This document shows positions 93-19,953 of a stretch of DNA of 20,194 nt, one piece after another. This DNA is from a virus, in IMG/VR virus record IMGVR_UViG_3300001533_001577, positions 1-20,194 of that record. One strand, given 5' to 3'. The position numbers and the translations under genes were made by a program. Within the stretch, counting starts at the first letter, position 1. Every line of letters starts with the position of its first letter. Under the pieces are notes generated by a model. The model was not told the origin of the DNA. It made no database searches and saw only the letters and a list, made by a program, of their open reading frames with translations.

Positions 93-661
93 TTATTATT
101 CTCCTCGTTTTTTGAACCACCTTTAGACCCTTTGATTTTTGTTGCACCATCGGCACAATCAATTAATCCTCCGTATATATTTAAGATACCTTTTCCAATA
201 CATTCTACAGTATTTTCTGAAATTATTTTCACCGATGTATCAGAGTTTACAAAAACACCTTCCTTTCCATTCACAACAACTTTTTCATTTGCATCAATAT
301 TAATCACACCATTTTTCCCATCACCACCAGTTGCTCTTAAATCAATATTTTCACCTTCAATACGAACTCTTCCCTTTGCTTTAAGAACTAAATCACCACT
401 GACTGCATCAATATAAACTCCAGGTTCACCATCAGGAACATTATCTCCTGCCTTGATTTGAAATGAACCAGGTGCTCTGCATATTGTTCCGTGCTTTAGG
501 TGTGGTTCACCTGTAGAAGACATCGCAATATAATGTTTGGAATGTGTTCCACTTCTTACAAGAAAGGCAAGCAGTTGATTTTTTTCGTTAATGTGACCGA
601 ACTTTAATTCACCATCCTTATTTCCATAACGAATGATATGATAGTTTTCTTTTTTAGACAT
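89..661 (-). CDS. Beta-helical needle/spike-like baseplate protein (separate counterpart of the gp5 C-terminal needle)
   Basis: 190 residues. From about residue 75 to 180 the protein is a series of short beta strands rich in Val, Ile, Gly and Asn/Asp (GVYIDAVSGDLVLKAKGRV, then IEGENIDLRA, VINIDANEKVVVNG, VFVNSDTSVKI). This is the look of a trimeric beta-helix such as the needle at the C-terminus of T4 gp5. The tail is a short Lys/Gly/Asn-rich segment. No enzyme motif or signal peptide is visible. The start codon shares one base with the stop of the gp5-like gene (TAATG), so coupled translation and a place in the same hub-spike complex are likely. I infer that it forms, or is part of, the membrane-piercing needle that the upstream OB-fold protein lacks. 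A tail-fibre-like or other structural role is possible. Confidence 0.6.
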   Translation of the reverse strand: MSKKENYHIIRYGNKDGELKFGHINEKNQLLAFLVRSGTHSKHYIAMSSTGEPHLKHGTICRAPGSFQIKAGDNVPDGEPGVYIDAVSGDLVLKAKGRVRIEGENIDLRATGGDGKNGVINIDANEKVVVNGKEGVFVNSDTSVKIISENTVECIGKGILNIYGGLIDCADGATKIKGSKGGSKNEENNK

Positions 662-3009
662 TATCGTGGAACTCTAAAAACATTTACATCTGGTATTTTT
701 CCAACACAATCAATTACAGAAATAATCTTATCTTGCACTTCTGGTTCTTTGACTTCATCTTTTGATACTCTATCTATACAGAAAACTGGAAGTAATCTTG
801 CATTATATCCAGTTTCACTTTGAATATAAATTGAAGGAACTTCTTTGAATCCTTCACCAGATGATGTAATTTTAATACTTTCAATTACACCAAATGGTCC
901 AAATTTTGGAACTGCAACAGCACCATTATTAGGTTCAATTACAATCTCATCAGTTTCTTGATAATTAAATCCACCATTTTGTATTTCTAATCCACAAAGA
1001 TATAAAATTACAGGATATTTACCATCATCCAATCCAGGATAATCACCTCTAACTAATGTAGAAGAATCTTGTACTGGTGCAGTAATAGTTCCAAAAGTAT
1101 TCACAGTATAATCAACACCACCACCAATAATTTCATTCCCCAATTCAGTACTTGTATTATTTGGAAGTCTTACAGTATCACCAGGAAGTAATTCAATAGT
1201 ATCACCAGGATTGTAGGGAGTATCATAAGTACCATCACTTCTTTGTACTGTTGTATTATCAGCAGGAGCCCATACTCTTCCATCACCACCACGATCTCCA
1301 TTTGGACTGGTCCTATATCCAGTTCCAGGATCTTCAATTACAACACTAGTTACACCATTAGTTCCAGTACCACCAGCAGTTACAGGAGTTCCACCAGTCC
1401 CAGCACCATCAGTACCACCAGTAGTATCAACAGGTCCTATAACTGCTCTTCCTACAGCACCAGTACCAGTTCCACAAGCATCAATAAATCTCACAAAAGG
1501 TGCAGAACTATATCCAGAACCAGGAGTTACAATATCTACTCCAAGTATATCACCAACAGCACTCACAATTACATTTCCAGATGCTCCAGAACCACCACCG
1601 CCAAAAAATTCAACTGTTGGTGGACCACATAAAACTGCTCCAACATTACAAGGATTATCAAATACATCACTAAAATCTAAATCAAAATTAAAATTATCTG
1701 GATCTATAGAATCTGTAACATTATCAGCAAAAGACTTTGCTTTTTCTATTAATGAATTCACATCAAAACTAGCAACATTACCTGGACCATCCCAAATATT
1801 CCATTCTTTTACTTCGGGACAATCAGGATTCTCATCACAAGAAAGAAATGTAAGTATATCAATAAGAAAATCAATAACATCACCTACAAGGTCAAATGCT
1901 CCAAGAAGTGCATTAATTGGTGCAAGTATTGCATCTAAAGCAGAAGTAATAAGACCAACAATCTTTCCAATCAATCCACCAACCATATTTTCAACAGCAC
2001 ATAGTGGTACATTAATAAATCTATCTATTGCTTGAAGTAAAAAATCAGTAATCATTTTCAGTAGATTACTAATAATTTTACGGAACAAACAAGCAATTAA
2101 ATCATTCGCAGTTTCCATTGTTCTTTTAAGACCTGGCCTTTGATTTGGAAACAGAACATAATATAAATCTTTTGCAGTATTATTTAATTTATTTGTTACA
2201 AACTTTTGTATTTCTGTTATGACCCACTTTATACCACCAGCAATAAAATTTGCTGCATCATCTACTGCGTTTCTTATAAAATTCTCTATATCTTGTATTC
2301 CATTTGTGATAGATTGTCTCCAATCATTTGCTTGTTTTTTTACTCTTTCAATAGATTGAATAAGATTTTTAATCTTAAGTTGAATTGCACCTAATGGTAC
2401 TCTATCACAATTTGCAGGAGTTGCTAATGATTCATCATTTTCATCAACTTCTTCTTCATCTTGAATATTTTGAGCCGTTCCACTACTTAATGTATTAGAT
2501 TCCCAAAGTGATGCTTGACCTCCTTGCCCTCCTGTAGGACTTGTTGCAACTGAAAAATATGGAGCATCAAGATTAAAAGGATTAAATGCACTTAATGGGT
2601 CAAACCCATTCTCTTGTGTACGATTTAAAAATGTTTGTTCGTTGTTTCCTATACAACCAAGAATGATAGGTTCATTCCCATCAATACCATCCTTATAAAA
2701 TCCAAGAACAACTGAACCTTGTCTTAAATTTGATGTTTGATAACTTGCTGCGTGACCTGAACCAGCAGTGACTGGATATAAAACCTCACATAATTCAAGT
2801 TTATCATCAGGAAGTTTATTTTTAACTTGAGGATGTTTTCCTGTAACTCTTGCTTTATATCTTGCCCCCCATCCAGGAAGATTTGTTACATCATTCCATT
2901 TTTCTGCAACTTGATTTCCTTTCCAATTTTCATCAGGTACGATAATTCCAGTCCACCAATAAAATCCACCATTACCAATTGATTCTGGATTAAAGAGACT
3001 ATTCTGCAT
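661..3009 (-). CDS. 5: gp5-like baseplate hub/spike protein with OB-fold, without the lysozyme domain
   Basis: 782 residues. Residues about 18-125 match the T4 gp5 N-terminal OB-fold: WWTGIIVP opening, ARVTGKHPQ, LCEVLYPVTAGSG, then GSVVLGFYKDG and EPIILGCIGN. T4 gp5 then has a lysozyme domain and a triple-stranded beta-helix; neither is visible here. Instead there is an acidic linker (about 183-194), a long amphipathic helical region (about 205-390), a Gly/Thr-rich stretch (526-553) and beta-rich repeats with GSGY/GTGY turns (about 478-745). The protein should sit on the gp27-like hub, whose gene is directly upstream with a one-base overlap (TAATG), and connect to the needle encoded downstream. 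The OB-fold assignment is firm. The role of the helical and repeat regions is unknown. Confidence 0.8.
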   Translation of the reverse strand: MQNSLFNPESIGNGGFYWWTGIIVPDENWKGNQVAEKWNDVTNLPGWGARYKARVTGKHPQVKNKLPDDKLELCEVLYPVTAGSGHAASYQTSNLRQGSVVLGFYKDGIDGNEPIILGCIGNNEQTFLNRTQENGFDPLSAFNPFNLDAPYFSVATSPTGGQGGQASLWESNTLSSGTAQNIQDEEEVDENDESLATPANCDRVPLGAIQLKIKNLIQSIERVKKQANDWRQSITNGIQDIENFIRNAVDDAANFIAGGIKWVITEIQKFVTNKLNNTAKDLYYVLFPNQRPGLKRTMETANDLIACLFRKIISNLLKMITDFLLQAIDRFINVPLCAVENMVGGLIGKIVGLITSALDAILAPINALLGAFDLVGDVIDFLIDILTFLSCDENPDCPEVKEWNIWDGPGNVASFDVNSLIEKAKSFADNVTDSIDPDNFNFDLDFSDVFDNPCNVGAVLCGPPTVEFFGGGGSGASGNVIVSAVGDILGVDIVTPGSGYSSAPFVRFIDACGTGTGAVGRAVIGPVDTTGGTDGAGTGGTPVTAGGTGTNGVTSVVIEDPGTGYRTSPNGDRGGDGRVWAPADNTTVQRSDGTYDTPYNPGDTIELLPGDTVRLPNNTSTELGNEIIGGGVDYTVNTFGTITAPVQDSSTLVRGDYPGLDDGKYPVILYLCGLEIQNGGFNYQETDEIVIEPNNGAVAVPKFGPFGVIESIKITSSGEGFKEVPSIYIQSETGYNARLLPVFCIDRVSKDEVKEPEVQDKIISVIDCVGKIPDVNVFRVPR
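1351..1434 (-). repeat. Low-complexity Gly/Thr-rich coding tract inside gp5-like gene
   Basis: Residues 526-553 of the gp5-like protein are almost entirely Gly, Thr, Ala, Val and Pro. The DNA is an imperfect array of ACC-, CCA- and GTT-containing triplets on the plus strand. It links two GSGY/GTGY-type beta repeats and is probably a flexible linker. The array may vary in length by slippage. The biased composition also creates a long open frame on the opposite strand that is not a gene. Confidence 0.55.
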
Positions 3010-4310
3010 TATCGTTTGTATGGTTTTCTACCGTAAGAATCTCTTACAAGAGTCAATTTTGTAAATGCACCTTCTCGTGCATCAAAAAATTGTACTAGGT
3101 TTGATATCATATATAGTCCACTATTTTTACCACTTACAACTTGAGTTTTATCTGAACTCAATTCTGGGAAATCACAATAGATTAAATTCCCAGCACGATG
3201 TGATAAATCACCGGCAATTGTAATATTTAATATAATTGTAAACAACTGATTATAACGACTTGCTGCTTGTGCTGTAATTTCATTTACATCATAATCTTTT
3301 TTCTTTGAATTCTCCTTATCAATTTTTTGCATCACTCCAATTGGTTGCATCTTACTGATAATTCTGGTTGGTTTCCCAAATAAATCATCAGGAAGACGAG
3401 GTAGATTTGTTCCTGCAAGATTTACTCCATCAGCACCTTCTCTTTCACTTTCAAGTTTTCTTTCTTCGTATTCAGTGCTAAAGAAATTATATCTTCTCAC
3501 TTCAGAACCATAAGCACCAATCATCATCTTTTGCTGAACATCAATATTAATTGTTGGAGTTGCTTCTAATATTTTTCCATCATATCCAGCAGGAAGTTCT
3601 GTTGTATTTGTATAAATGTATTTTTTATATCCTCTATTTTCATCAAGTAATTTCTCAATTGATTTAAAGTGAAATCCATCATAGTTCTCAAAGAAAAAGA
3701 AACCAGCAGACTTATCTCTTCCACCTTCAGGAATACTTCTTTTTCCTAACCAAGTACATTTATAAAATGGTTTTTCAGTGTGTCCGTTAAAATTATATTC
3801 ATTATCAGTAACTTCTATACTTAAATCCTTTTCAGTATTTAAAAAATCTGTAAGTATAAGTGCAACAGAAGTAGATATTTTACCTTCAAAATGTCCGTCT
3901 ACTCTAGTTTCAACAAGTTCATTTGTAAAAAACTCTTTTGTTACAAGGTCCACCACAAAAACCATATTTTGTGTATGTTCCATTTTATTACGAATTCTTC
4001 CAATATAAAGACACTTCTCATTTGAGAAATCTAAAATATTTCCATAACCATCTTCAAGTTTTAATTCAACTTTTTCTGCACCACATAAATCTAAACCTTC
4101 AATTAAACTTACAAGTTTTCCATCTTTATCAACAGAGTAACCAGTATCAGCAATAATTGCAGTTGCCTTTATGTAATTCTCAAGTACACTTTCATAGTAA
4201 TGTAGATTCACAAAACCACGATTTACATCACAAGACTTACCACCTTCATTTGAATAAATGGTAAACTTTGATACATTATATTCTCTTGCAACTTGATTAG
4301 TGAGACTCAT
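3009..4310 (-). CDS. 27: gp27-like baseplate hub protein
   Basis: 433 residues, against about 390 in T4 gp27. The N-terminal half contains beta-rich stretches typical of VgrG/gp27-type hub proteins. The C-terminal part shows GDLSHRAGNLIYCDFPEL followed by SGLYMISNLVQFFDAREG and a TKLTLVRDSYG ending. This is the layout of the last hub domain, where the protein describes a 'returned' beta sheet that holds the tail tube. No enzyme motif is present. Its gene lies directly upstream of the gp5-like OB-fold gene with a one-base overlap, matching the physical gp27-gp5 complex in T4. The assignment rests on position, length and the C-terminal pattern rather than on close identity, so it is likely but not certain. 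Confidence 0.65.
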   Translation of the reverse strand: MSLTNQVAREYNVSKFTIYSNEGGKSCDVNRGFVNLHYYESVLENYIKATAIIADTGYSVDKDGKLVSLIEGLDLCGAEKVELKLEDGYGNILDFSNEKCLYIGRIRNKMEHTQNMVFVVDLVTKEFFTNELVETRVDGHFEGKISTSVALILTDFLNTEKDLSIEVTDNEYNFNGHTEKPFYKCTWLGKRSIPEGGRDKSAGFFFFENYDGFHFKSIEKLLDENRGYKKYIYTNTTELPAGYDGKILEATPTINIDVQQKMMIGAYGSEVRRYNFFSTEYEERKLESEREGADGVNLAGTNLPRLPDDLFGKPTRIISKMQPIGVMQKIDKENSKKKDYDVNEITAQAASRYNQLFTIILNITIAGDLSHRAGNLIYCDFPELSSDKTQVVSGKNSGLYMISNLVQFFDAREGAFTKLTLVRDSYGRKPYKR

Positions 4311-7300
4311 TATCCAACAGTAAGTGGTTGTAATATACTATCCATACTACTATCTATGGAAGATGTTGAAGCATTTCCTCCACCCATCGGCATAGGAACT
4401 GGTTTTTCTACAATAACTCTTTGTAGCATTATTGTAGAAGTATTCTCTCCTTCATAAGAAGTGTAATTTTTTAAGACTGAAATCGCATCATCATATTTTG
4501 CTCTATTCAAATCACTTAAAAATCCAGGAAAGTTCTGTTCTAATGCAGCAGTTGTATCAGCATCAAGAACAAACTCTGGACCTTTTTCTCCTAATATTGC
4601 TTTTGTACGACCGTGAACTTTTCCACCTTTTTCAAATGCAACGTGAACATGGTCATTGTGTTGACGATTTGTGGAATCACCCCAATAGTCTAAAGATACT
4701 CTTTTACCATTTGCAATACCGTATCCAAGTGGTGTATAAATTAACTGTGTTATATTAGAACCATAATTATCAATTAATTTTTGAGCAAATTCAAGCATTT
4801 CTGGAGTTCCCATTTGACCTGCACCAACATTTGAAAAATCCATTGCTCTTCCAGATATGTGATAACTTTTATCACCAGGAAATCTTGGTGCTCTTTGTCC
4901 ACTCGTCATTTGAAGTCCCATACTTTCTGCAAGTTCTCTTGCTACTTGAAGATTACCAGAACCAGTTCCTAAAGAAGTTCCAGCTCTAAATTTCGCAGTC
5001 CCATCAGGTGCTTTAGGAACTGTGCTTAAATATTGTGCGTGTTTTCTACTTCCAGAACTTTCGTCAGCAGGTCTTTCCCATTCCCTCATCCACCAATCTG
5101 CTGCTTCTTGTGCGGAAGAAAAACTTCTTCTTTGATATTCACCTGGTGAAACTAAAGAAAGATTTTGAGGTTCATTTAGTGCATAATCAATTTGTGCTTT
5201 CCAATTAGTTTCCCAATCAGGAACAGCACGAATAAAAGGTTCAACTCTACCGTGAGACCATTGAAACAAACCAATTCCAGTTCCTCCAGGTTCTCTTACA
5301 TTTGGTCTAAAACTACTTTCTCTAGAAATATTAGCCATTAAACCAAGTGCTTGTATATCACTCATCTTCTTCACACTAATCAAATAATCATAAATTTCTT
5401 TCTGTATTCCTGTAGGTGCATATCCACCATACATTCCTCCAGGAGAACTACCAGGTCTAGTACCAGGTTCAGTAATACCGTCTAAATTCAATTGTCTACG
5501 AATTGATTGTAGACTTTCATTTACTTTTGAATTAATCATCACTTCAAAAGTTCTTGAAATTTGCTCTCCAATCTTCATACCAATATTTTCATTAGAAGAA
5601 AGAGTTCTTGGAACTACACCACCACCAGCAAGACCTACAAGTTGCTTTTGAATGCTTTCTATGGTTTGTGAAGATTGACTATCAATTGCATTTTGAATCA
5701 GTGCTCCAAATCCATATCCAATTTTTTGAAATACACTCTTCTCTGGTTTTTGTCCCATCACCAAATCAACAGAAGCACCCATCAACCCACCAAGCATAGG
5801 AATTTCTTTTAGATTTTTAGAAGTTTTTTCTAATATTCCAAGTGGGTCTTTTTTTGATTTGTCTTTTGATGTTGGAAATAACTTTTCAATCTCTTTTTTA
5901 CCACCAATATCTTTACCTGGGATTGTTCTTTGTGGTTGTACTCTTGGTGGTCGTCTTCTTATCTTTTTAATTTTTCTTCTAATTGCACCACCAACTTTCT
6001 TACCACCTCTTGTAACTTGACCACCCTTTGATTTTATTTGAACTCCAGTATTTCCTGCAAAAGTATCATAAAGTGCTCCACCAACAATATCACCAAGAAT
6101 ACCCCCAAGAATTGTTCCAGCAAAAGGAATTGGTATAAATGTCCCTAAAGCAGAACCAATTGTAGCACCAACTGCTTTTGCTGCTGCTCTTCCAGGTTTT
6201 TCACCCATCGCAAGAGAAAATGCAAAATCTAATAACCCACCAATTATAGGAACTCTACCAAAAATACCTTTTGCAATTTTAGTTCCTGCTGTACCAAGAA
6301 CTTTAAGTGATGCTCTATTTGCTGCTTTCCCCAATCCACGAGAAAAAATTGCTCCTTTTCCTGTTCCTCCAGCAAGACCTCTTTGAACTCCATATCTTTG
6401 ATTAAGAGGTTTAAATCTCTTTCTAACATCAGCAAGTGCTCTCTTCTGACTTGCACCTTGTGCTCTTCTTCCCTCATATATTCTTGCAGCATCATTACCA
6501 TATATCTTTTCAATTTTTTTAACTTGGTTATTCCTGTTAAGATAATCTCGCAGTTTTTGGTTTGGTTTTAATGCTCCTCCTTTTGAACTTATACTCGGTT
6601 TTCCACCAGTTTTCCCTCTTCCCAATCCAAAATCAGTTCCACCTGTCGCAGCAAGTCCCGCAATAATCGCAAGATTTGCAAAGATATTAAACTGCTTACT
6701 AAACTCATCAAAAGTTTTCTCAAAATTTTCACCACCAATAGATTTTGCAATTCCTCTTACTTGGTCGTATGCTTTATATCCAGCACCTATAAAATCAACT
6801 ACACCATTCAATATATTTCCAGTTAGTTCTTCAACAAACTTAAATGCTGGTGTAAGTTTCTTTGCAAATTCTAATACCTTTGGAATGTGCTTTCCAAATT
6901 TATTGAAGGCATAACCAAGTGATGTAAATAATAAAAATCTTTTCAGTCTATCAAGAAATCCAATCTTTGGTAAAGAAGGACCTGATATTTCCTTTTCACT
7001 TTTTGGTTCTTTCTTTTCTAATTCTTTTTCTCTTTTTTCAAACTTTTGTCTTTCTAATAACTTTCTCTTTCTTTCTTCACTTTTTTGAAATAATTTTGTA
7101 TTTTTATTAATTAACTTCTCAAGTTTTATAACTTTCTTACGAATTCTTATAACTTCAAATAATAAAGAAGTTCTTGTTTGTTTTGGTTGTTCTTCTGTTG
7201 GACCTATATCACCTGCTTTTACAATCGCAGAAGATTTTGGAATAATATTAGAAATTGGGACAAGAAACTTTTGACTATCGGTCCCTGTTGATTTTGATGG

Positions 7301-7333
7301 TGGTAATAATTTTTTAGAGTTAATAACAGCCAT
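4310..7333 (-). CDS. Tape-measure-like tail protein with tail-lysozyme and M15 peptidase-like domains
   Basis: 1007 residues. An N-terminal tail precedes a Lys/Glu-rich coiled coil (about 58-115). Next come a hydrophobic motif LDRLKRFLLFTSLGYAFNKF (127-146) shared with the neighbouring 744-residue protein, Gly/Ala-rich hydrophobic segments (about 355-425), a very basic stretch (445-465) and a second copy of a VPIIGGLL...MGEKP-like unit (361-380 and 511-530). Residues about 642-780 resemble the phage tail lysozyme family, with candidate catalytic Glu672 in NISRESSF and a GIGLFQW segment. Residues about 790-905 look like an M15 peptidase: H825-x6-D832 in SYHISGRAMDF and H895-x-H897 in DHVHVAF. 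A tape-measure-type GEKGPEFV motif follows. I infer a protein in the tail lumen or hub that degrades the cell wall during entry. It could replace the T4 gp5 lysozyme and perhaps gp28/gp29. Confidence 0.7.
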   Translation of the reverse strand: MAVINSKKLLPPSKSTGTDSQKFLVPISNIIPKSSAIVKAGDIGPTEEQPKQTRTSLLFEVIRIRKKVIKLEKLINKNTKLFQKSEERKRKLLERQKFEKREKELEKKEPKSEKEISGPSLPKIGFLDRLKRFLLFTSLGYAFNKFGKHIPKVLEFAKKLTPAFKFVEELTGNILNGVVDFIGAGYKAYDQVRGIAKSIGGENFEKTFDEFSKQFNIFANLAIIAGLAATGGTDFGLGRGKTGGKPSISSKGGALKPNQKLRDYLNRNNQVKKIEKIYGNDAARIYEGRRAQGASQKRALADVRKRFKPLNQRYGVQRGLAGGTGKGAIFSRGLGKAANRASLKVLGTAGTKIAKGIFGRVPIIGGLLDFAFSLAMGEKPGRAAAKAVGATIGSALGTFIPIPFAGTILGGILGDIVGGALYDTFAGNTGVQIKSKGGQVTRGGKKVGGAIRRKIKKIRRRPPRVQPQRTIPGKDIGGKKEIEKLFPTSKDKSKKDPLGILEKTSKNLKEIPMLGGLMGASVDLVMGQKPEKSVFQKIGYGFGALIQNAIDSQSSQTIESIQKQLVGLAGGGVVPRTLSSNENIGMKIGEQISRTFEVMINSKVNESLQSIRRQLNLDGITEPGTRPGSSPGGMYGGYAPTGIQKEIYDYLISVKKMSDIQALGLMANISRESSFRPNVREPGGTGIGLFQWSHGRVEPFIRAVPDWETNWKAQIDYALNEPQNLSLVSPGEYQRRSFSSAQEAADWWMREWERPADESSGSRKHAQYLSTVPKAPDGTAKFRAGTSLGTGSGNLQVARELAESMGLQMTSGQRAPRFPGDKSYHISGRAMDFSNVGAGQMGTPEMLEFAQKLIDNYGSNITQLIYTPLGYGIANGKRVSLDYWGDSTNRQHNDHVHVAFEKGGKVHGRTKAILGEKGPEFVLDADTTAALEQNFPGFLSDLNRAKYDDAISVLKNYTSYEGENTSTIMLQRVIVEKPVPMPMGGGNASTSSIDSSMDSILQPLTVG

Positions 7334-7334
7334 C

Positions 7335-9569
7335 TTATCCTATTCCGTAAATAGAAGCATTTGCTCTTTGAGTGGAAGTCATTTGGTCCATAATCTGTGG
7401 TACTTGAGAACCACCAGAAGCAACTTGTTGCCCTCCTGCCTGTTGAATTATATCAGGTAGTGGTATGATTGATGATTGATTACTTCTGCTTACTGGAGGA
7501 CCAGGAACCGATGGTTTTGCTTTTGGTGCAAATAAATTACGAATTGGTTTTGGAATAATACCAGATAAACCACTATCATCACTTAAAGATTCTCTAATAC
7601 CTTTAGGTCCTGCTGGTTTTACAACCTTTGCTTTTGGTGGTTCAACTTTCGTTAAATCTTTAGGACCACTTAACAATAATTGCCTTTCTAAATTCAATCT
7701 AAATTGACTTGGACCACCTCTTTGCACTTCTTTAGCAGCAGTCACCATATCTCCAGTTTGAAGTGACTTTGTTAATTTCTTATAAGTTCCAATAGGACCA
7801 TAAGGAGCATTATATCCAACAACTAATACTCCTGCCTTTTGGTCGTCACTCATTTTATTCCAGTGAGGAATCTCTTTTTGATATTTCTTTGATAAATTAC
7901 CTATATTTGTTTTTAGTATACTATCTGCTTTTCTTTTTGTGATTGTATCTCCCATTTTTACAGGTTTCTTTCCACTCAATATACTATCATAAAAAGTAGA
8001 ACCCCATCCAATTGTAGACTTACCTACACTATCTTTATATGCGTGAATTGGTGTATCTGGTTTAATGGAACTCCAATTCATTCCACTAACAACACTACTT
8101 CCACCAGGTTTGATATAATCATTTACACCTTTTGTTAATGAAGATAGTGCTTCATCTTTTTGTAAATGGTGTGCTGCTTTTCCAATAAAACCACCACCAG
8201 CAGCAAATTGAATATTATTCGTCATTCGTGGAATATTAGTTCCACCTGCTGATTTATTTAAATTTAATAAGAACCCAGCACCATATTTGTCTACTGCCTT
8301 TTTAGACATTACAATTTCACCAGGTTGTGCTGCAATCAGTTGTGTATCAGGACCAGCACCAGTAATATCAACACCTGCATCATCATCAATATAACCACCT
8401 TCCTCATAAGCAATACTTTCTACAGGAATAAATGGAATCATTCCACCACCTTTAAATCCACCAATTCCTCTTTGCAGAATACTTTCCTGCATTAATTGAG
8501 AACCACCAGGAGTTTTACCAGAACCTGGTGTTACAATATTTGGATCAGTCTTTTTAAATTCTTCTCGTCTTTGAGTATTTTGTTGTGTTGCAAGATATGC
8601 TCCACCAGCAGCAAGAGCACCACCTGCGACTAATCCTGCAGTTATAGGATTTTTCATCGCAAACTTTGCAAGTTTTGGTATTGCAAATTTCGCAAGTCTA
8701 AATGTAAGTTTTGAAACTGTCCCTATAAATGAACGAACAAATCCACCAAATGGTGTTGTGAATAAAACTAAAGCACCTAATAATGCAGGCCACCAATCCT
8801 TTAAAAATCTTGTTAATACTTCTACTTTTTCTTTATTTTTTGGGTCATTAAACCAATCAATAAATTTTACAAATGCTCTACCTAATAATGTATAAAGTAT
8901 AAAATTTAATATTCTATCTAATATTCCACGAACAGGTGCTAAAACTTTAGAAGCAAATGCAGTAACTTTACTTATACCTTTTTCTAAATCTTCTTCTCTT
9001 CCTTGTCTTCTTAATCGTTCTTGTCTTTTTCTTTCATTCTCTTCAGTCTTTTTAATTGCTTGATTTTGATTTGTAAGACTTTCAAGTATTCTTCCTAAAG
9101 TTTCATTAATTGTAATTACATTTTTAAGAAGTCTATCCCCACCTTCTTCCTTCTTATCTGCAAATTCTGGTGTGATTGCCTTTTCTGTAAGATAATACTT
9201 TTCCTTATTAACTCTTACAGGACCAGAAACTCCTAAATTATCTGCAGTTATTTTCTTTTTCTTTAATTTAAACCTACCAACCTTACCTTTAACTCTTTTA
9301 AATTCATCAGTCAAAAGCATACTTTCTTCGGTTGATATTTTTTTATCAACCATTCTTGCTTCCACCATCTTCTCACGAAGAAGAGTCATATAAGTTGAAT
9401 AATCAATATCAAAAACATCATCAAGACCTAGAAGTCTTAATAGTCTTTCATCAACTTCTTCACTCACTAAATCATCATCACGAGTTCCTTCATATAAAGC
9501 AAGAGCTTTTTCTCTCTTTGCTTCATCTCTAATACTATTAAGAAGTTCATCTAAATCTTCAGGACCCAT
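7335..9569 (-). CDS. Tape-measure-like tail protein with a GH24 (T4 lysozyme-type) domain
   Basis: 744 residues. The N-terminal 145 residues are charged. A coiled coil runs about 146-195. The motif LDRILNFILYTLLGRAFVKF (217-236) is shared with the downstream 1007-residue protein. Further hydrophobic segments lie at about 259-285 and 308-327. Residues 411-430 carry an AQPGEIVMSKKAVDKYG motif of the kind seen in phage tape-measure proteins. Residues about 467-636 resemble GH24 lysozymes, with AYKDSVGKSTIGWGS giving Asp513 and Thr519 at the T4 lysozyme Asp20/Thr26 spacing, and an FRLNLERQLLLSG end. The position of the catalytic Glu is Pro504, next to Asp505, so activity is uncertain. The C-terminus is Pro/Lys-rich. 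Gene order (after gp26 and gp51) parallels the T4 hub cluster. A tape-measure or hub role is inferred. Confidence 0.68.
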   Translation of the reverse strand: MGPEDLDELLNSIRDEAKREKALALYEGTRDDDLVSEEVDERLLRLLGLDDVFDIDYSTYMTLLREKMVEARMVDKKISTEESMLLTDEFKRVKGKVGRFKLKKKKITADNLGVSGPVRVNKEKYYLTEKAITPEFADKKEEGGDRLLKNVITINETLGRILESLTNQNQAIKKTEENERKRQERLRRQGREEDLEKGISKVTAFASKVLAPVRGILDRILNFILYTLLGRAFVKFIDWFNDPKNKEKVEVLTRFLKDWWPALLGALVLFTTPFGGFVRSFIGTVSKLTFRLAKFAIPKLAKFAMKNPITAGLVAGGALAAGGAYLATQQNTQRREEFKKTDPNIVTPGSGKTPGGSQLMQESILQRGIGGFKGGGMIPFIPVESIAYEEGGYIDDDAGVDITGAGPDTQLIAAQPGEIVMSKKAVDKYGAGFLLNLNKSAGGTNIPRMTNNIQFAAGGGFIGKAAHHLQKDEALSSLTKGVNDYIKPGGSSVVSGMNWSSIKPDTPIHAYKDSVGKSTIGWGSTFYDSILSGKKPVKMGDTITKRKADSILKTNIGNLSKKYQKEIPHWNKMSDDQKAGVLVVGYNAPYGPIGTYKKLTKSLQTGDMVTAAKEVQRGGPSQFRLNLERQLLLSGPKDLTKVEPPKAKVVKPAGPKGIRESLSDDSGLSGIIPKPIRNLFAPKAKPSVPGPPVSRSNQSSIIPLPDIIQQAGGQQVASGGSQVPQIMDQMTSTQRANASIYGIG

Positions 9570-9738
9570 TAGATTGCTCTTGCTTTAATTTCTCTTCTTC
9601 TAGATGATTCTTTAGCATCATTACATAAATGTCCCTCTCCCAAGGGATGAGATTTTCTATCTCCGTCAAAGAATATTTATGATACTGCATCAAGGCAAAA
9701 TTGAGTTGATAATAATTCTCTAGGTCCATATGGACCAT
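9559..9738 (-). CDS. 51: Short gp51-like baseplate hub assembly protein
   Basis: A 59-residue frame starting at ATG 9738-9736, two bases after the stop of gp26, and ending in a TGA at 9561-9559 that overlaps the next gene by 11 bases. The sequence begins MVHMDLENYYQLNFAL, contains LIPWERDIYVMMLKNHLEEEK and ends in a charged helix. An alternative ATG three codons in (9729) is possible. Small proteins of this type follow gp26 in T4-like cyanophages and are annotated as gp51, the hub assembly catalyst; T4 gp51 is several times longer. The T4 order is also 26-51-27. No enzyme motif is visible, and the function is taken from position and family resemblance. Confidence 0.65.
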   Translation of the reverse strand: MVHMDLENYYQLNFALMQYHKYSLTEIENLIPWERDIYVMMLKNHLEEEKLKQEQSNGS

Positions 9739-9740
9739 AC

Positions 9741-10460
9741 TTATACGAAAAAAGATGATAACCCTTCTAAAACAACTTCATTTTCTACTTTTGTTTTAGG
9801 ATTTGTAACTGTAATCTTATGAGACAATTTAGGCATCGTCTCAAAGAATGTTTCAATTTTTTTGAACTGTAAGGAATTCATTTGATCTAAAAATTCAGTG
9901 ATTTCTTTTTTCGTCACATCACTTGTAGACCAAACTTCATCTTCCGTATAAATTGTATCAATACAAGAAGAAATTAGATCAAATGCTTGATCCATATCAT
10001 TTGCCGCACTGAAGTCAAAATTATTTTTAATAAATTGATCTAATGATGGATACTTCATTTCAAGCATAATATTATCATCAATTTTAATTTTTTTATCGTG
10101 CCCGTCAAACTTCTTGACTTCAATCTCATCTACATTAATTTTTACAGGGACTGTGGTTTCCCCATCATCAGGACAGATAATATTAACTTCAATTTCTTCT
10201 CCTACAGATTTTCCACGAATATTCAAGAACAAATATTCAATATCAAAAGTAGGTAAAGTCTCAACTTTAACTCCTCTAGTCTCAATACAACTTTTAATGA
10301 CTGTCTTAATTGCTTCTGTAATTTGTTTAGTATCTTCACTTTCTAATGCAAGGACTAATAATTTTTCTTCTCTAACTAAAAATGGACGATATTTAATTTC
10401 TTTTCCAGTTGATGGTAAAGTCAAGTGGTAAGATGGTGTAGAAATTTTAGGCAGCGGCAT
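9741..10460 (-). CDS. 26: gp26-like baseplate hub assembly protein
   Basis: 239 residues, close to T4 gp26 (208). It begins MPLPKISTPSYHLTLPSTGK and continues with IKYRPFLVREEKLLVLALES, the conserved start of the T4 baseplate gp26 family. A beta-rich middle (EIEVNIICPDDGETTVPVKI) and a helical C-terminal part with an F-x-x-M-P-x-L segment follow. In T4 it is needed for central hub assembly. It is the first gene of the minus-strand hub/tail operon and is preceded by an exact late promoter. The gp51-like gene follows after two bases. No clear Shine-Dalgarno sequence is seen in the A/T-rich leader. Confidence 0.85.
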   Translation of the reverse strand: MPLPKISTPSYHLTLPSTGKEIKYRPFLVREEKLLVLALESEDTKQITEAIKTVIKSCIETRGVKVETLPTFDIEYLFLNIRGKSVGEEIEVNIICPDDGETTVPVKINVDEIEVKKFDGHDKKIKIDDNIMLEMKYPSLDQFIKNNFDFSAANDMDQAFDLISSCIDTIYTEDEVWSTSDVTKKEITEFLDQMNSLQFKKIETFFETMPKLSHKITVTNPKTKVENEVVLEGLSSFFV

Positions 10461-17451: not shown

Positions 17452-18121
17452 AAATCTCCAGTTTATCTTCTACAAATTTTTGAATGTATTGTACTAATAG
17501 TTCTAGATATTTCTTCTTATCATACTCTTCATATACTACACATTCACCAGTTTCGCAAGCCATTAAAATTACTAACTTCTTAACAATTGTACCAGTAAGT
17601 TCATAATACATTGCGGCATATGCTGCTGCCTGAACAAAATAATGTTCAATCCACTCTTTTGGTTTTGGTTTCTTTGAAGTCTTAAAATCAATGACTGCAA
17701 GTTCTCCGTTATACTCTGAAATACAATCTACAGTTCCTGCAATACCAAGTTTTTTACTGTATAATGCACCTTCTAAACAATGAATATTATCAATTTTATT
17801 CAGTTCAGGTTTTGCAATTTTAAATAAGAAATCTGATAATGGTTGAACTGTTGGGAGTTCTGGAATATTGTAAAGATAATTTTCAACTAAAGAGTGCATA
17901 TCAGTTCCCCGACTTGTTGCTGCTTTAGTGATCTTATTTGCAGTATCTTCCCCGACCCTTTTTCTCCAGTTTACAAATATCTCTTTATTGAAATGACTTG
18001 TTACAGAAGTAATGGAGACCAGTTTTATAAGGTCTCCATTATCAGGCACAGAATAATACCTAACTCCATCTATAGTAGTTCTTTCAAGACGAGGAAGAGA
18101 AACATCAATATGATTAAACAT
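17435..18121 (-). CDS. PD-(D/E)XK exonuclease (RecB/MGME1-like)
   Basis: 228 residues. The nuclease core is clear: His76 in DMHSLVENYL, Glu118 region (HCLEGALYS), GIAGTVDC with Asp132, VIDFKTSK with Asp145 and Lys147, and Gln164 in VQAAAYAAMYY. This is the RecB-type layout (H, E, GxxD, DxK with x = Phe, QxxxY). The family in cyanophages resembles the mitochondrial maintenance exonuclease MGME1 and is expected to degrade DNA ends with Mg2+. It may supply ssDNA for recombination, degrade host DNA or process replication intermediates; the exact substrate cannot be told. The start codon shares one base with the PhoH stop (TAATG), and gp33 begins inside its 3' end. Confidence 0.85.
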   Translation of the reverse strand: MFNHIDVSLPRLERTTIDGVRYYSVPDNGDLIKLVSITSVTSHFNKEIFVNWRKRVGEDTANKITKAATSRGTDMHSLVENYLYNIPELPTVQPLSDFLFKIAKPELNKIDNIHCLEGALYSKKLGIAGTVDCISEYNGELAVIDFKTSKKPKPKEWIEHYFVQAAAYAAMYYELTGTIVKKLVILMACETGECVVYEEYDKKKYLELLVQYIQKFVEDKLEIYETSK

Positions 18122-19953
18122 TAATTAAATCCAAGTTCATTTTTTGCGACAAGGTACTCTTTACAAATTCCAGAACGGACAATATCTTCAATACCAAACT
18201 CAATTATATCAAAAGAAGGCATTTGACGCAAGATTTTCATAAAATCTACAATACCATTCCTTTCATTTGTTCTTATTAAATCACTTTGTGTTGCATCACC
18301 ACAAAACATAATTTTAGAATTTTCACCAACACGAGTAATAATAGAATCTAATTCGTGAAAATTTAAATTAGAAAATTCATCTACAATAATAATACAATTA
18401 TCTAAAGTTGTTCCACGAATAAATGAAGTACTCCAAAAACTAATCGTTTCTTGTTGTTTCAAATTACCATACAACATTTCAAAGTCTGCATCACTAGGCA
18501 TTTGAAACATATACTTTACCATATTCTTATATGGAATTTGATAAAGTGAAGATTTGTCTTCGTGAGATCCAGGAAGAAATCCAATTTCTCTTGTTGGAAC
18601 TAGAGATCTTACAAGATAAATTTTTTCATAAGGAGTATATTCATTCAATACTTCTTTTAAAGCATTATACAATGTAACAAAAGTATTATGTGTAATGATA
18701 TAATCATCAGTAATATAAAGATGTTTTTCATCTTCAATCATAATACACTGTGCTTCTTCCTCTCCAACATAATTTACTTCTTTAATCTTCCTTCTATATT
18801 GAAGTTTATCGTAAGTTTCTCTACATAAATCTTTTTTTCTTTGTAAAGTAAATAGTTCTTTTGGGTTTCTTACAGTAATAAAAACATTATAAGATCTTCT
18901 ACCATTCTTTTTGATTCCATCATAAGTATATGATGGAATTCTAGATGTGATATTACAAATACCACCAAGAGACCAAATAATTTCTTGAACTTGCTTTGCT
19001 AAAACTTGACTTGTTGTTGAAAAAGATACTGTACCATTTCTACGATCAACAGTTCCATCCGTATCCATTAATCCTCTTATAAGGCTTAATTTTTGTTCAG
19101 TACCAGAGTTAATATAAATTGATGGAATAAACTTTTCGTAGGATTTTTTTCCTTGAACACCCAAATCCTTTAATATATTTGTCAGTGAATTTAATTTAGT
19201 TGTTCTTGATGAATTGTCTATAAAATTATAATCACAATTTTCACCTTTACAGGATTTGATCTTTATATTTTCAGATAATGCATATTTTAATTGTTCTAAT
19301 ATAGTCAAATCCTTAGTTGTAAATTTGGGAGTAGTTGTTGTTAAACATCCATCACCAATCAAACATCCAAGAAGATAAGGATCTAATGGAACTTTAACAT
19401 TTTTTGTTTTGATGGGTTCAATTAAATCAATTGAAATGTTAGTTGTAGATTTTCTAAGTTCTTTTTCTTTTAGAAAATCAATTATATATTGAGTATTAAC
19501 TACTTTTTTATACCCAGCTTTTTTTCTACTCCATCCACTAGGAGAATTAATTTCCCAAAGATGTTCTAAACAGCATCTAGTTTTAGATCCGTCGTGAAAA
19601 ATAATTTCATAAATTTGTTTTTTTCCTTGAGGAAAAATCCCACAAATTTTTGTTTTTTTTCCACTGGGAGTCAGTACATAATCTCCAACGTTAACTTCAC
19701 CAATTGTAGTCCAACCATTTGGGGTCAAAACTTTAGAATATAATGGTTGTGCTTTACCCGTTCCAGCTGCTCCATAAGCAATTAGATTTTTACCATCACT
19801 ATAAGCAGTAAAAAGTTTTTTCTGATTATCTGTTAGAGGTTCTATATCAATTAAGTATTCACTATTAATTGGTTTTTTTCGTTTCATCTGTTTTGCAGTA
19901 AGACCAACTCCGATTGGTTGGTTTTCATTTGTAGTCTTCCTTCTTCTTGCCAT
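18121..19953 (-). CDS. phoH: PhoH-like ATPase precursor interrupted by an intein
   Basis: 610 residues encoded. Without the 356-residue intein (68-423) the product is 254 residues, the usual size of phage PhoH-like proteins. The N-extein ends in the Walker A loop GAAGTGK, and the C-extein resumes with TFVTLYNALKEV, rebuilding GAAGTGKT. The C-extein holds IYLVRSLVPTREIGFLPGS, the Walker B segment CIIIVDEFSN, and FCGDATQSDL, all typical of PhoH. Precise splicing should be required for ATP binding because the insert splits the P-loop. The role of phage PhoH is not settled; it is an RNA/DNA helicase-like ATPase widespread in marine phages and sometimes linked to phosphate stress. The gene follows a small protein after seven bases and overlaps the exonuclease start by one base. 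Confidence 0.93.
   Translation of the reverse strand: MARRRKTTNENQPIGVGLTAKQMKRKKPINSEYLIDIEPLTDNQKKLFTAYSDGKNLIAYGAAGTGKAQPLYSKVLTPNGWTTIGEVNVGDYVLTPSGKKTKICGIFPQGKKQIYEIIFHDGSKTRCCLEHLWEINSPSGWSRKKAGYKKVVNTQYIIDFLKEKELRKSTTNISIDLIEPIKTKNVKVPLDPYLLGCLIGDGCLTTTTPKFTTKDLTILEQLKYALSENIKIKSCKGENCDYNFIDNSSRTTKLNSLTNILKDLGVQGKKSYEKFIPSIYINSGTEQKLSLIRGLMDTDGTVDRRNGTVSFSTTSQVLAKQVQEIIWSLGGICNITSRIPSYTYDGIKKNGRRSYNVFITVRNPKELFTLQRKKDLCRETYDKLQYRRKIKEVNYVGEEEAQCIMIEDEKHLYITDDYIITHNTFVTLYNALKEVLNEYTPYEKIYLVRSLVPTREIGFLPGSHEDKSSLYQIPYKNMVKYMFQMPSDADFEMLYGNLKQQETISFWSTSFIRGTTLDNCIIIVDEFSNLNFHELDSIITRVGENSKIMFCGDATQSDLIRTNERNGIVDFMKILRQMPSFDIIEFGIEDIVRSGICKEYLVAKNELGFN
18685..19752 (-). mobile_element. 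Intein with LAGLIDADG homing endonuclease, class 3 signature
   Basis: 356 codons in frame inside phoH. Intein residue numbers: Ala1 begins AQPLYSKVLTPNGW, block B is RCCLEHLW with His64 and Trp66, block F is AQCIMIEDEKHLYITDD with Cys336, and the C-terminus is IITHN (Thr354, His355, Asn356) followed by Thr as the first C-extein residue. The lack of Cys/Ser at position 1, with Trp at B:12, Cys at F:4 and Thr at G:5, is the signature of class 3 inteins. These start splicing with the block F cysteine. Two LAGLIDADG motifs are present, LLGCLIGDG (127-135, Asp134) and LIRGLMDTDG (224-233, Asp230/Asp232), so the homing endonuclease looks intact. The frame has no stop or frameshift. Confidence 0.93.

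Follow-up and report, generated by a model that had tools for sequence, protein, structure and literature searches.

Tandem paralogous tail proteins with exchangeable wall-hydrolase cargo as candidate tape measures of T4-like cyanophages

The T4-like cyanophages rank with the most abundant viruses of the sea. In T4 itself, the tape measure belongs to a 51-27-28-29 gene cluster: one 590-residue protein, gp29, is encoded after gene 27 and carries no enzyme, while the lysozyme stays on gp5. For the T4-like cyanophages, a survey from 2020 was unable to name the tape measure (PMC7029224). Here we describe a 20,194-nt record of a marine cyanobacterial phage (IMG/VR IMGVR_UViG_3300001533_001577; this whole stretch is called the window below), which includes a T4-like structural block. 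In a neighbourhood comparable to the T4 cluster, near gp26, gp51 and the hub genes, the window has a pair of proteins with enzymatic cargo, protein A (744 residues) and protein B (1007 residues). The two are homologous, keep a fixed slot and order and carry modular cargo, and the accompanying gp5-like hub has no lysozyme domain. For the tape measure of this phage family, A and B are the strongest candidates, and a role as ruler is likely.

Homology and gene order of A and B

Both open reading frames are present as the initial annotation described them, A at 7335..9569 and B at 4310..7333 on the minus strand, with the start of B 1 bp past the stop of A. Residues 145–253 of A match residues 55–161 of B by phmmer with an E value of about 3e-9. 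Inside these segments, the motifs LDRILNFILYTLLGRAFVKF (A 217–236; 8862..8921, minus strand) and LDRLKRFLLFTSLGYAFNKF (B 127–146; 6896..6955, minus strand) are identical at 12 of 20 positions, reproducing the likeness noted in the initial annotation. Profiles of the two families also find one another (A core to B, 3.6e-18; B core to A, 9.2e-22), each recovering every member of the other family.

Both segments are rich in Lys and Glu, and a convergent coiled-coil composition might produce such matches. We regard this explanation as exceedingly improbable. Profiles that begin just before the LDR motif, with the Lys/Glu-rich coil removed, still specifically find the other family: run against about 4,300 open reading frames, the coil-free profile of A recovered 49 of the 62 B proteins, that of B recovered 76 of the 78 A proteins, and no unrelated reading frame scored below an E value of 0.25. 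These searches rule out a coiled-coil artefact as the source of the similarity. Profile–profile comparison with hhalign argues in the same direction inside six lineages, giving 99.1% for the clade of the window, 98.4% for S-PM2, 98.1% for S-CREM1/MS29, 98.1% for Syn9, 96.9% for S-SZBM1 and 95.0% for a further lineage, cluster C. Because homology was seen in every paired lineage tested, the pair is a general feature rather than a local duplication.

The homologous part consists of the coil plus the motif, about 110–130 residues; in the window, the remainder of A does not align with the remainder of B. The earlier proposal that the N-terminal halves are paralogous is therefore borne out, by phmmer, profiles and a significant hhalign comparison, for this segment and not for the halves as a whole. 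For the Gly-rich parts and the GE/GPEFV-type motifs, which had also been put forward as common to A and B, homology could not be demonstrated. In a tree of the N-terminal core, A and B fall into separate clades; because this alignment is short (about 95 residues) and the support for the split is 0.17, we leave the duplication undated.

The order on the minus strand of the window is a gp26-like baseplate hub gene (9741..10460; PF12322, 6.1e-78), a gp51-like reading frame of 59 residues (9559..9738), which lies upstream of A and overlaps it, then A, B, a gp27-like hub gene (3009..4310; T4-GC 15, assigned by PHROG 350 tail protein, 1.3e-80, and by synteny) and a gp5-like hub gene (661..3009; PHROG 1922, 1.6e-102). 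A gp51 gene sits at the equivalent position in S-PM2, Syn9 and S-SCSM1. The order gp26, gp51, A, B, gp27-like gene, in some cases followed by gp5, recurs in S-PM2, S-SM2, SynMITS9220M01, S-CREM2, S-N03, S-SCSM1 and S-SZBM1, and likewise in S-H34, S-SRM01, Syn9, P-SSM7, Bellamy and S-CREM1; the pair is found across Kyanoviridae. In a survey of 80 related viral contigs, 64 had enough sequence downstream of A, and B follows A directly in 62 of these, mostly with a 1-bp gap; the other two contain a truncated B. The slot had been likened to the place where T4 has 27-28-29, which does not hold strictly: A and B lie between gp51 and the gp27-like gene.

Domains and exchangeable cargo

Protein A has a Lys/Glu-rich predicted coiled-coil helix (residues 145–210; 8940..9137), which is seen in the AlphaFold2 (AF2) model and falls within the segment homologous to B 55–161. 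Beyond the LDR motif come a GPDTQLIAAQPGEIVMSKKAV...LN motif (the PGE motif; residues 398–440; 8250..8378) with matches to the tape-measure PHROGs 10030, 37649 and 3547 (2e-5 to 4e-3), a GH24-like domain (481–645; 7635..8129) and a C-terminal stretch (680–744; 7338..7532) that phmmer segments and alignment recognize in many relatives without GH24 cargo. All features of A and B lie on the minus strand. The GH24-like domain has the fold and family signature of its class (PF00959, 1.4e-10; Foldseek matches to phage endolysins, best 1.9e-4), and alignments with Protein Data Bank (PDB) structures and with the family place a Pro (KPDTPIHAYKDSVG) where solved lysozymes have the catalytic Glu of their E-D-T triad. 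This Glu is also missing from the GH24-like domain in all A relatives and in B of cluster C, and is retained in S-CRM01. With the canonical Glu gone, the domain in the window may be inactive or may work by a different mechanism.

In protein B, a coiled-coil helix in the AF2 model (residues 57–106; 7016..7165) and the LDR motif are followed by a Gly-rich hydrophobic segment (340–440; 6014..6316), which matches PHROG 12490, labelled endolysin, and cyanophage families; a similar segment occurs in A of S-CREM1/Syn9. Two enzymatic domains come next. The tail lysozyme domain PF18013 (644–763; 5045..5404) matches its family profile at 7e-22 and keeps the Glu of the stretch NISRESSF, both as expected for the family. 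The M15-like zinc peptidase domain (795–905; 4619..4951) has both zinc motifs, SxHxxGxAxD at residue 823 (SYHISGRAMD) and HxDHxH at residue 892 (HNDHVH); the Pfam M15 profile PF08291 gave an E value of 0.13, which fails the cut-off. The same domain matches the tape-measure PHROGs 9228 (2.7e-9) and 16277 (1.5e-8) and, by tblastn, annotated tape measures of actinobacteriophages. A LGEKGPEFVLDADTTAAL...LN motif (915–960; 4454..4591) was read in the sequence and matched only the cyanophage PHROG 35997. Searches of the PDB returned nothing significant for the B model (best E value 0.58) and no match for the B sequence. The three wall-hydrolase domains initially assigned to the pair thus come with a caveat for the GH24-like one, which lacks its canonical catalytic Glu.

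Among relatives, the cargo varies at the same place. The 37 A members include nine with GH24, two with PF18013 and one with GH19, and many have no detectable enzyme domain. Among 38 B members, M23 occurs in 16, PF18013 in 13 and GH73 in 5, with SLT, SLT_3, Hydrolase_2, M15, DPBB and VanY as further types; isolates add GH19, GH73, VanY, M23 and Hydrolase_2 to the cargo of the pair. One GH24-like domain sits in A of the window's clade and in B of cluster C (hhalign 99.7%), so cargo has moved between A and B. Together with the profile homology in every paired lineage, this variety gives good support to the initial idea of a duplicated scaffold with swapped enzymatic cargo. As a separate observation, the S-PM2 equivalent of A, p207, has an ADP-ribosyltransferase-like domain near its N terminus (residues 66–218; PF01129, 1.3e-5), possibly an injected phage effector similar in idea to T4 Alt.

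A Pfam scan found no lysozyme domain on the gp5-like hub in any of the nine phages tested, and the gp5-like hub of the window lacks one; wall digestion therefore appears to have passed from gp5 to A and B. Residues 213–443 of the window's gp5-like hub are helical and resemble tape-measure PHROGs (1.9e-5), and a small gene (89–661; PHROG 26118) comes after the gp5-like gene. The PHROG families 7, 790, 1200 and 12490, all labelled endolysin, include A- and B-type tail proteins, which means that many endolysin labels assigned automatically in cyanophages are probably incorrect.

Candidacy for the tape measure

The case for one or both proteins as the tape measure, also raised in the initial annotation, is circumstantial: slot, virions of relatives, a pelagiphage counterpart, motifs and an enlarged pair in S-CREM2. 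A and B are encoded in the tail and baseplate cluster, where a tail tape measure protein is expected. Presence in the virion, likewise expected, is found in published proteomes of two relatives: S-CREM2 gp208 (A) and gp209 (B) gave 73 and 71 unique peptides and were filed as endolysins (PMC10665884), and the S-SCSM1 proteome includes the equivalents ORF213 and ORF214, filed as non-structural (PMC9602691). In the pelagiphage HTVC008M, of the same virus family, the slot after gp26 and gp51 is occupied by a 687-residue putative tape measure (I899_gp020) that matches seven tape-measure PHROGs (8e-12 to 1e-8). Near its N terminus, a coil followed by a hydrophobic segment gives a weak alignment (69%) to A of cluster C. 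HTVC008M also has, between gp51 and the tape measure, a 110-residue reading frame with a hydrophobic stretch, for which we saw no counterpart in the window.

We then compared protein lengths with published tail lengths (PMC10665884, PMC9602691, PMC9964418, PMC7472177, PMC9146016, PMC10436341, PMC8557907). S-CREM2, with a reported tail of 418 nm, has an A of 1565 residues and a B of 1456 residues, 1.66 and 1.98 times the lengths in S-H34 (tail 129 nm); the ratios of other conserved structural proteins are 0.86–1.08, except for the adaptor at 1.34. Over eight isolates, tail length correlates with the length of A (r 0.92) and of B (r 0.88), and not with the lengths of gp26 and gp27. In the seven ordinary isolates, the longer of A and B rises with tail length at a slope of 1.48 Å per residue; a simple helical ruler of 1.5 Å per residue suits these isolates and fails for S-CREM2. 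In S-CREM2, a 13-residue repeat, FxQ(S/T)(M/N)GSVxPxxx, is matched 31 times in gp209, in strict register between residues 775 and 1298, and A contains an array of 14–15-residue repeats; among the other isolates we found no comparable array and only weak signals in A of S-N03, S-H34 and P-SSM7. As a speculation, one 13-residue unit, if extended at about 3.1 Å per residue, would span about 40 Å, near one ring of a T4-like tube. Other S-CREM2 proteins tried as tape measure and rejected were gp124, gp122 and gp211/gp5-like (length ratios 1.08, 1.00 and 0.90) and gp130, a long unassigned virion protein that looks beta-rich and matches no tape-measure family.

Several observations weigh against a tape-measure role. 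Similarity to T4 gp29 was not detected (none of the A, B or single-gene proteins exceeded 1.2% in hhalign), direct homology to gp28 was not found by hhalign either, and the matches to known tape measures are short (A PGE motif, 2e-5; B M15-like domain, 2.7e-9) rather than full length. The AF2 models, of low confidence (predicted local distance difference test 59 for A and 54 for B), have Gly-rich and disordered stretches; helical regions are predicted for most of A 145–341 and of B 57–314, 364–426 and 497–616, and in A the unbroken helix spans no more than about 200 residues. Nor do the lengths follow a clean quantitative relation: without S-CREM2, r falls to 0.71 for A and 0.79 for B (n = 7), S-CREM2 needs 2.7–2.9 Å per residue for either protein alone against 1.5 for a helix, and the sum of A and B corresponds to 1.38 Å per residue in S-CREM2 but 0.65–0.85 in other isolates. 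Part of the enlargement of S-CREM2 A is extra cargo or domain-like sequence, as judged by eye, and Ser/Thr/Asn repeats rather than helix. The tail lengths come from transmission electron microscopy in different laboratories, and the virion and tail-length data belong to relatives of the window's phage. Finally, the pair is not obligatory, because S-CRM01 and HTVC008M manage with one gene. S-CRM01 (tail 140–170 nm) has a single 864-residue slot protein in which a coil and hydrophobic helices are combined with two PGE-type motifs, an M15-like domain and a GH24 domain that has its Glu, and the more distant pf16, like HTVC008M, has one long gene after gp51. These comparisons suggest that the duplication took place within the cyanophage branch, or that S-CRM01 may have lost one copy.

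On balance, we consider it reasonably probable that the two paralogues are virion proteins located in the tail lumen and at the hub, built on a duplicated tape-measure-type scaffold with exchangeable wall-cleaving cargo that replaces the gp5 lysozyme, and that tail length is set by at least one of the pair and probably by both jointly. In this scheme each scaffold would comprise an N-terminal coiled coil, hydrophobic helices and variable cargo. The proteins would dock through their related N-terminal segments and assemble within the growing tube on the gp27/gp5-like hub, limiting tube length. On sheath contraction they would leave through the tube ahead of the DNA, their hydrophobic segments might touch the inner membrane, and their exchangeable enzymes would cut peptidoglycan in place of T4 gp5 lysozyme. 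Here we infer that they lie in the lumen, act as ruler, are ejected and digest the wall at entry, drawing on known tape measures with lytic domains (PMC3556154).

Other divisions of labour would account for some of the same data. It is quite possible, if short of probable, that only one member of the pair acts as tape measure, with the other a derived helper, either a second lumen protein or a hub plug like T4 gp28, that keeps the N-terminal docking segment. The single slot gene of S-CRM01 and HTVC008M would fit such an arrangement, the separate N-core clades are compatible with an old functional divergence, and the correlation between A and B lengths across 15 isolates is mainly due to S-CREM2; in that phage, however, both proteins are enlarged, both gained repeats and their unique-peptide counts are alike. 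A tape in which both paralogues do fill the tube, each with a different exchangeable enzyme, would make the ruler of Kyanoviridae hetero-oligomeric, with the 418-nm tail of S-CREM2 reached through repeat arrays in both; we offer this version as doubtful. It could take the form of three copies of each in a six-stranded bundle or of an end-to-end arrangement.

We think it unlikely that A and B are solely wall hydrolases carried on the hub or in the lumen for entry while another protein sets tail length. Such a role would suit the scarcity of predicted helix, the sizeable enzymatic cargo, the lack of gp29 similarity and the filing of the S-CREM2 and S-SCSM1 proteins by their authors as endolysins or non-structural virion enzymes. 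Yet among the remaining conserved virion proteins of S-CREM2, the adaptor alone scales with the tail, and modestly; gp130 seems beta-rich and resembles no tape-measure family, and in HTVC008M a tape measure occupies the slot. Many A members have no detectable enzyme, so an enzyme-only role fails to explain why A is retained. Ordinary endolysins acting in lysis at the end of infection, as PHROG and GenBank labels of members would have it, are very unlikely: the genes belong to the baseplate operon, flanked by gp51 and the gp27-like gene, the products were detected in virions of two relatives (unless by carry-over), much of each protein is a non-enzymatic scaffold, many members have no enzyme domain and the GH24-like domain of the window has lost its catalytic Glu.

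Elsewhere in the window, the 610-residue PhoH protein (18121–19953, minus strand) appears to hold an intein in its Walker-A P-loop (GAAGTGK/AQPLYSKV...ITHN/TFVTLY). The putative intein has the LAGLIDADG-like motifs LLGCLIGDG and LIRGLMDTDG; S-PM2 PhoH has only about 250 residues.

Comparison with known systems

Should A and B prove to be the tape measure, a gap in the virion map of these phages closes, many database entries named endolysin are to be read as tail structural proteins, and the ruler would be an unusual one, consisting of two paralogues and bearing a swappable cassette of entry enzymes, for which S-CREM2 provides a natural experiment.

Among described proteins, HTVC008M I899_gp020 shares the slot and the succession of an N-terminal coil and a hydrophobic segment, and differs in being a single gene without wall-hydrolase cargo and with clear similarity to tape-measure PHROGs along most of the protein. 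The slot equivalents S-CREM2 gp208/gp209 and S-SCSM1 ORF213/214 are in virions and carry different cargo, and the S-CREM2 copies have long repeat arrays. In the cyanophage tail of Anabaena phage A-1(L), peptidoglycan-degrading domains are carried in the virion on the hub protein gp15 (PMC10966104), with a distinct protein, a helical bundle, as the tape measure, whereas in the window the enzymes are on A and B. Tail proteins with an embedded peptidoglycan hydrolase are also known as tape measures of siphophages, in mycobacteriophage TM4 and in phiCbK, whose gp95 bears a CHAP domain (PMC3556154); those are single proteins of siphophages, whereas the window's phage has a tandem paralogous pair for a contractile T4-like tail. 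The papers that we searched describe no duplicated or two-component tape measure. Lytic-domain tape measures were already known; in those papers we found no account of T4-like phages whose tape-measure slot holds two tandem paralogues that exchange cargo.

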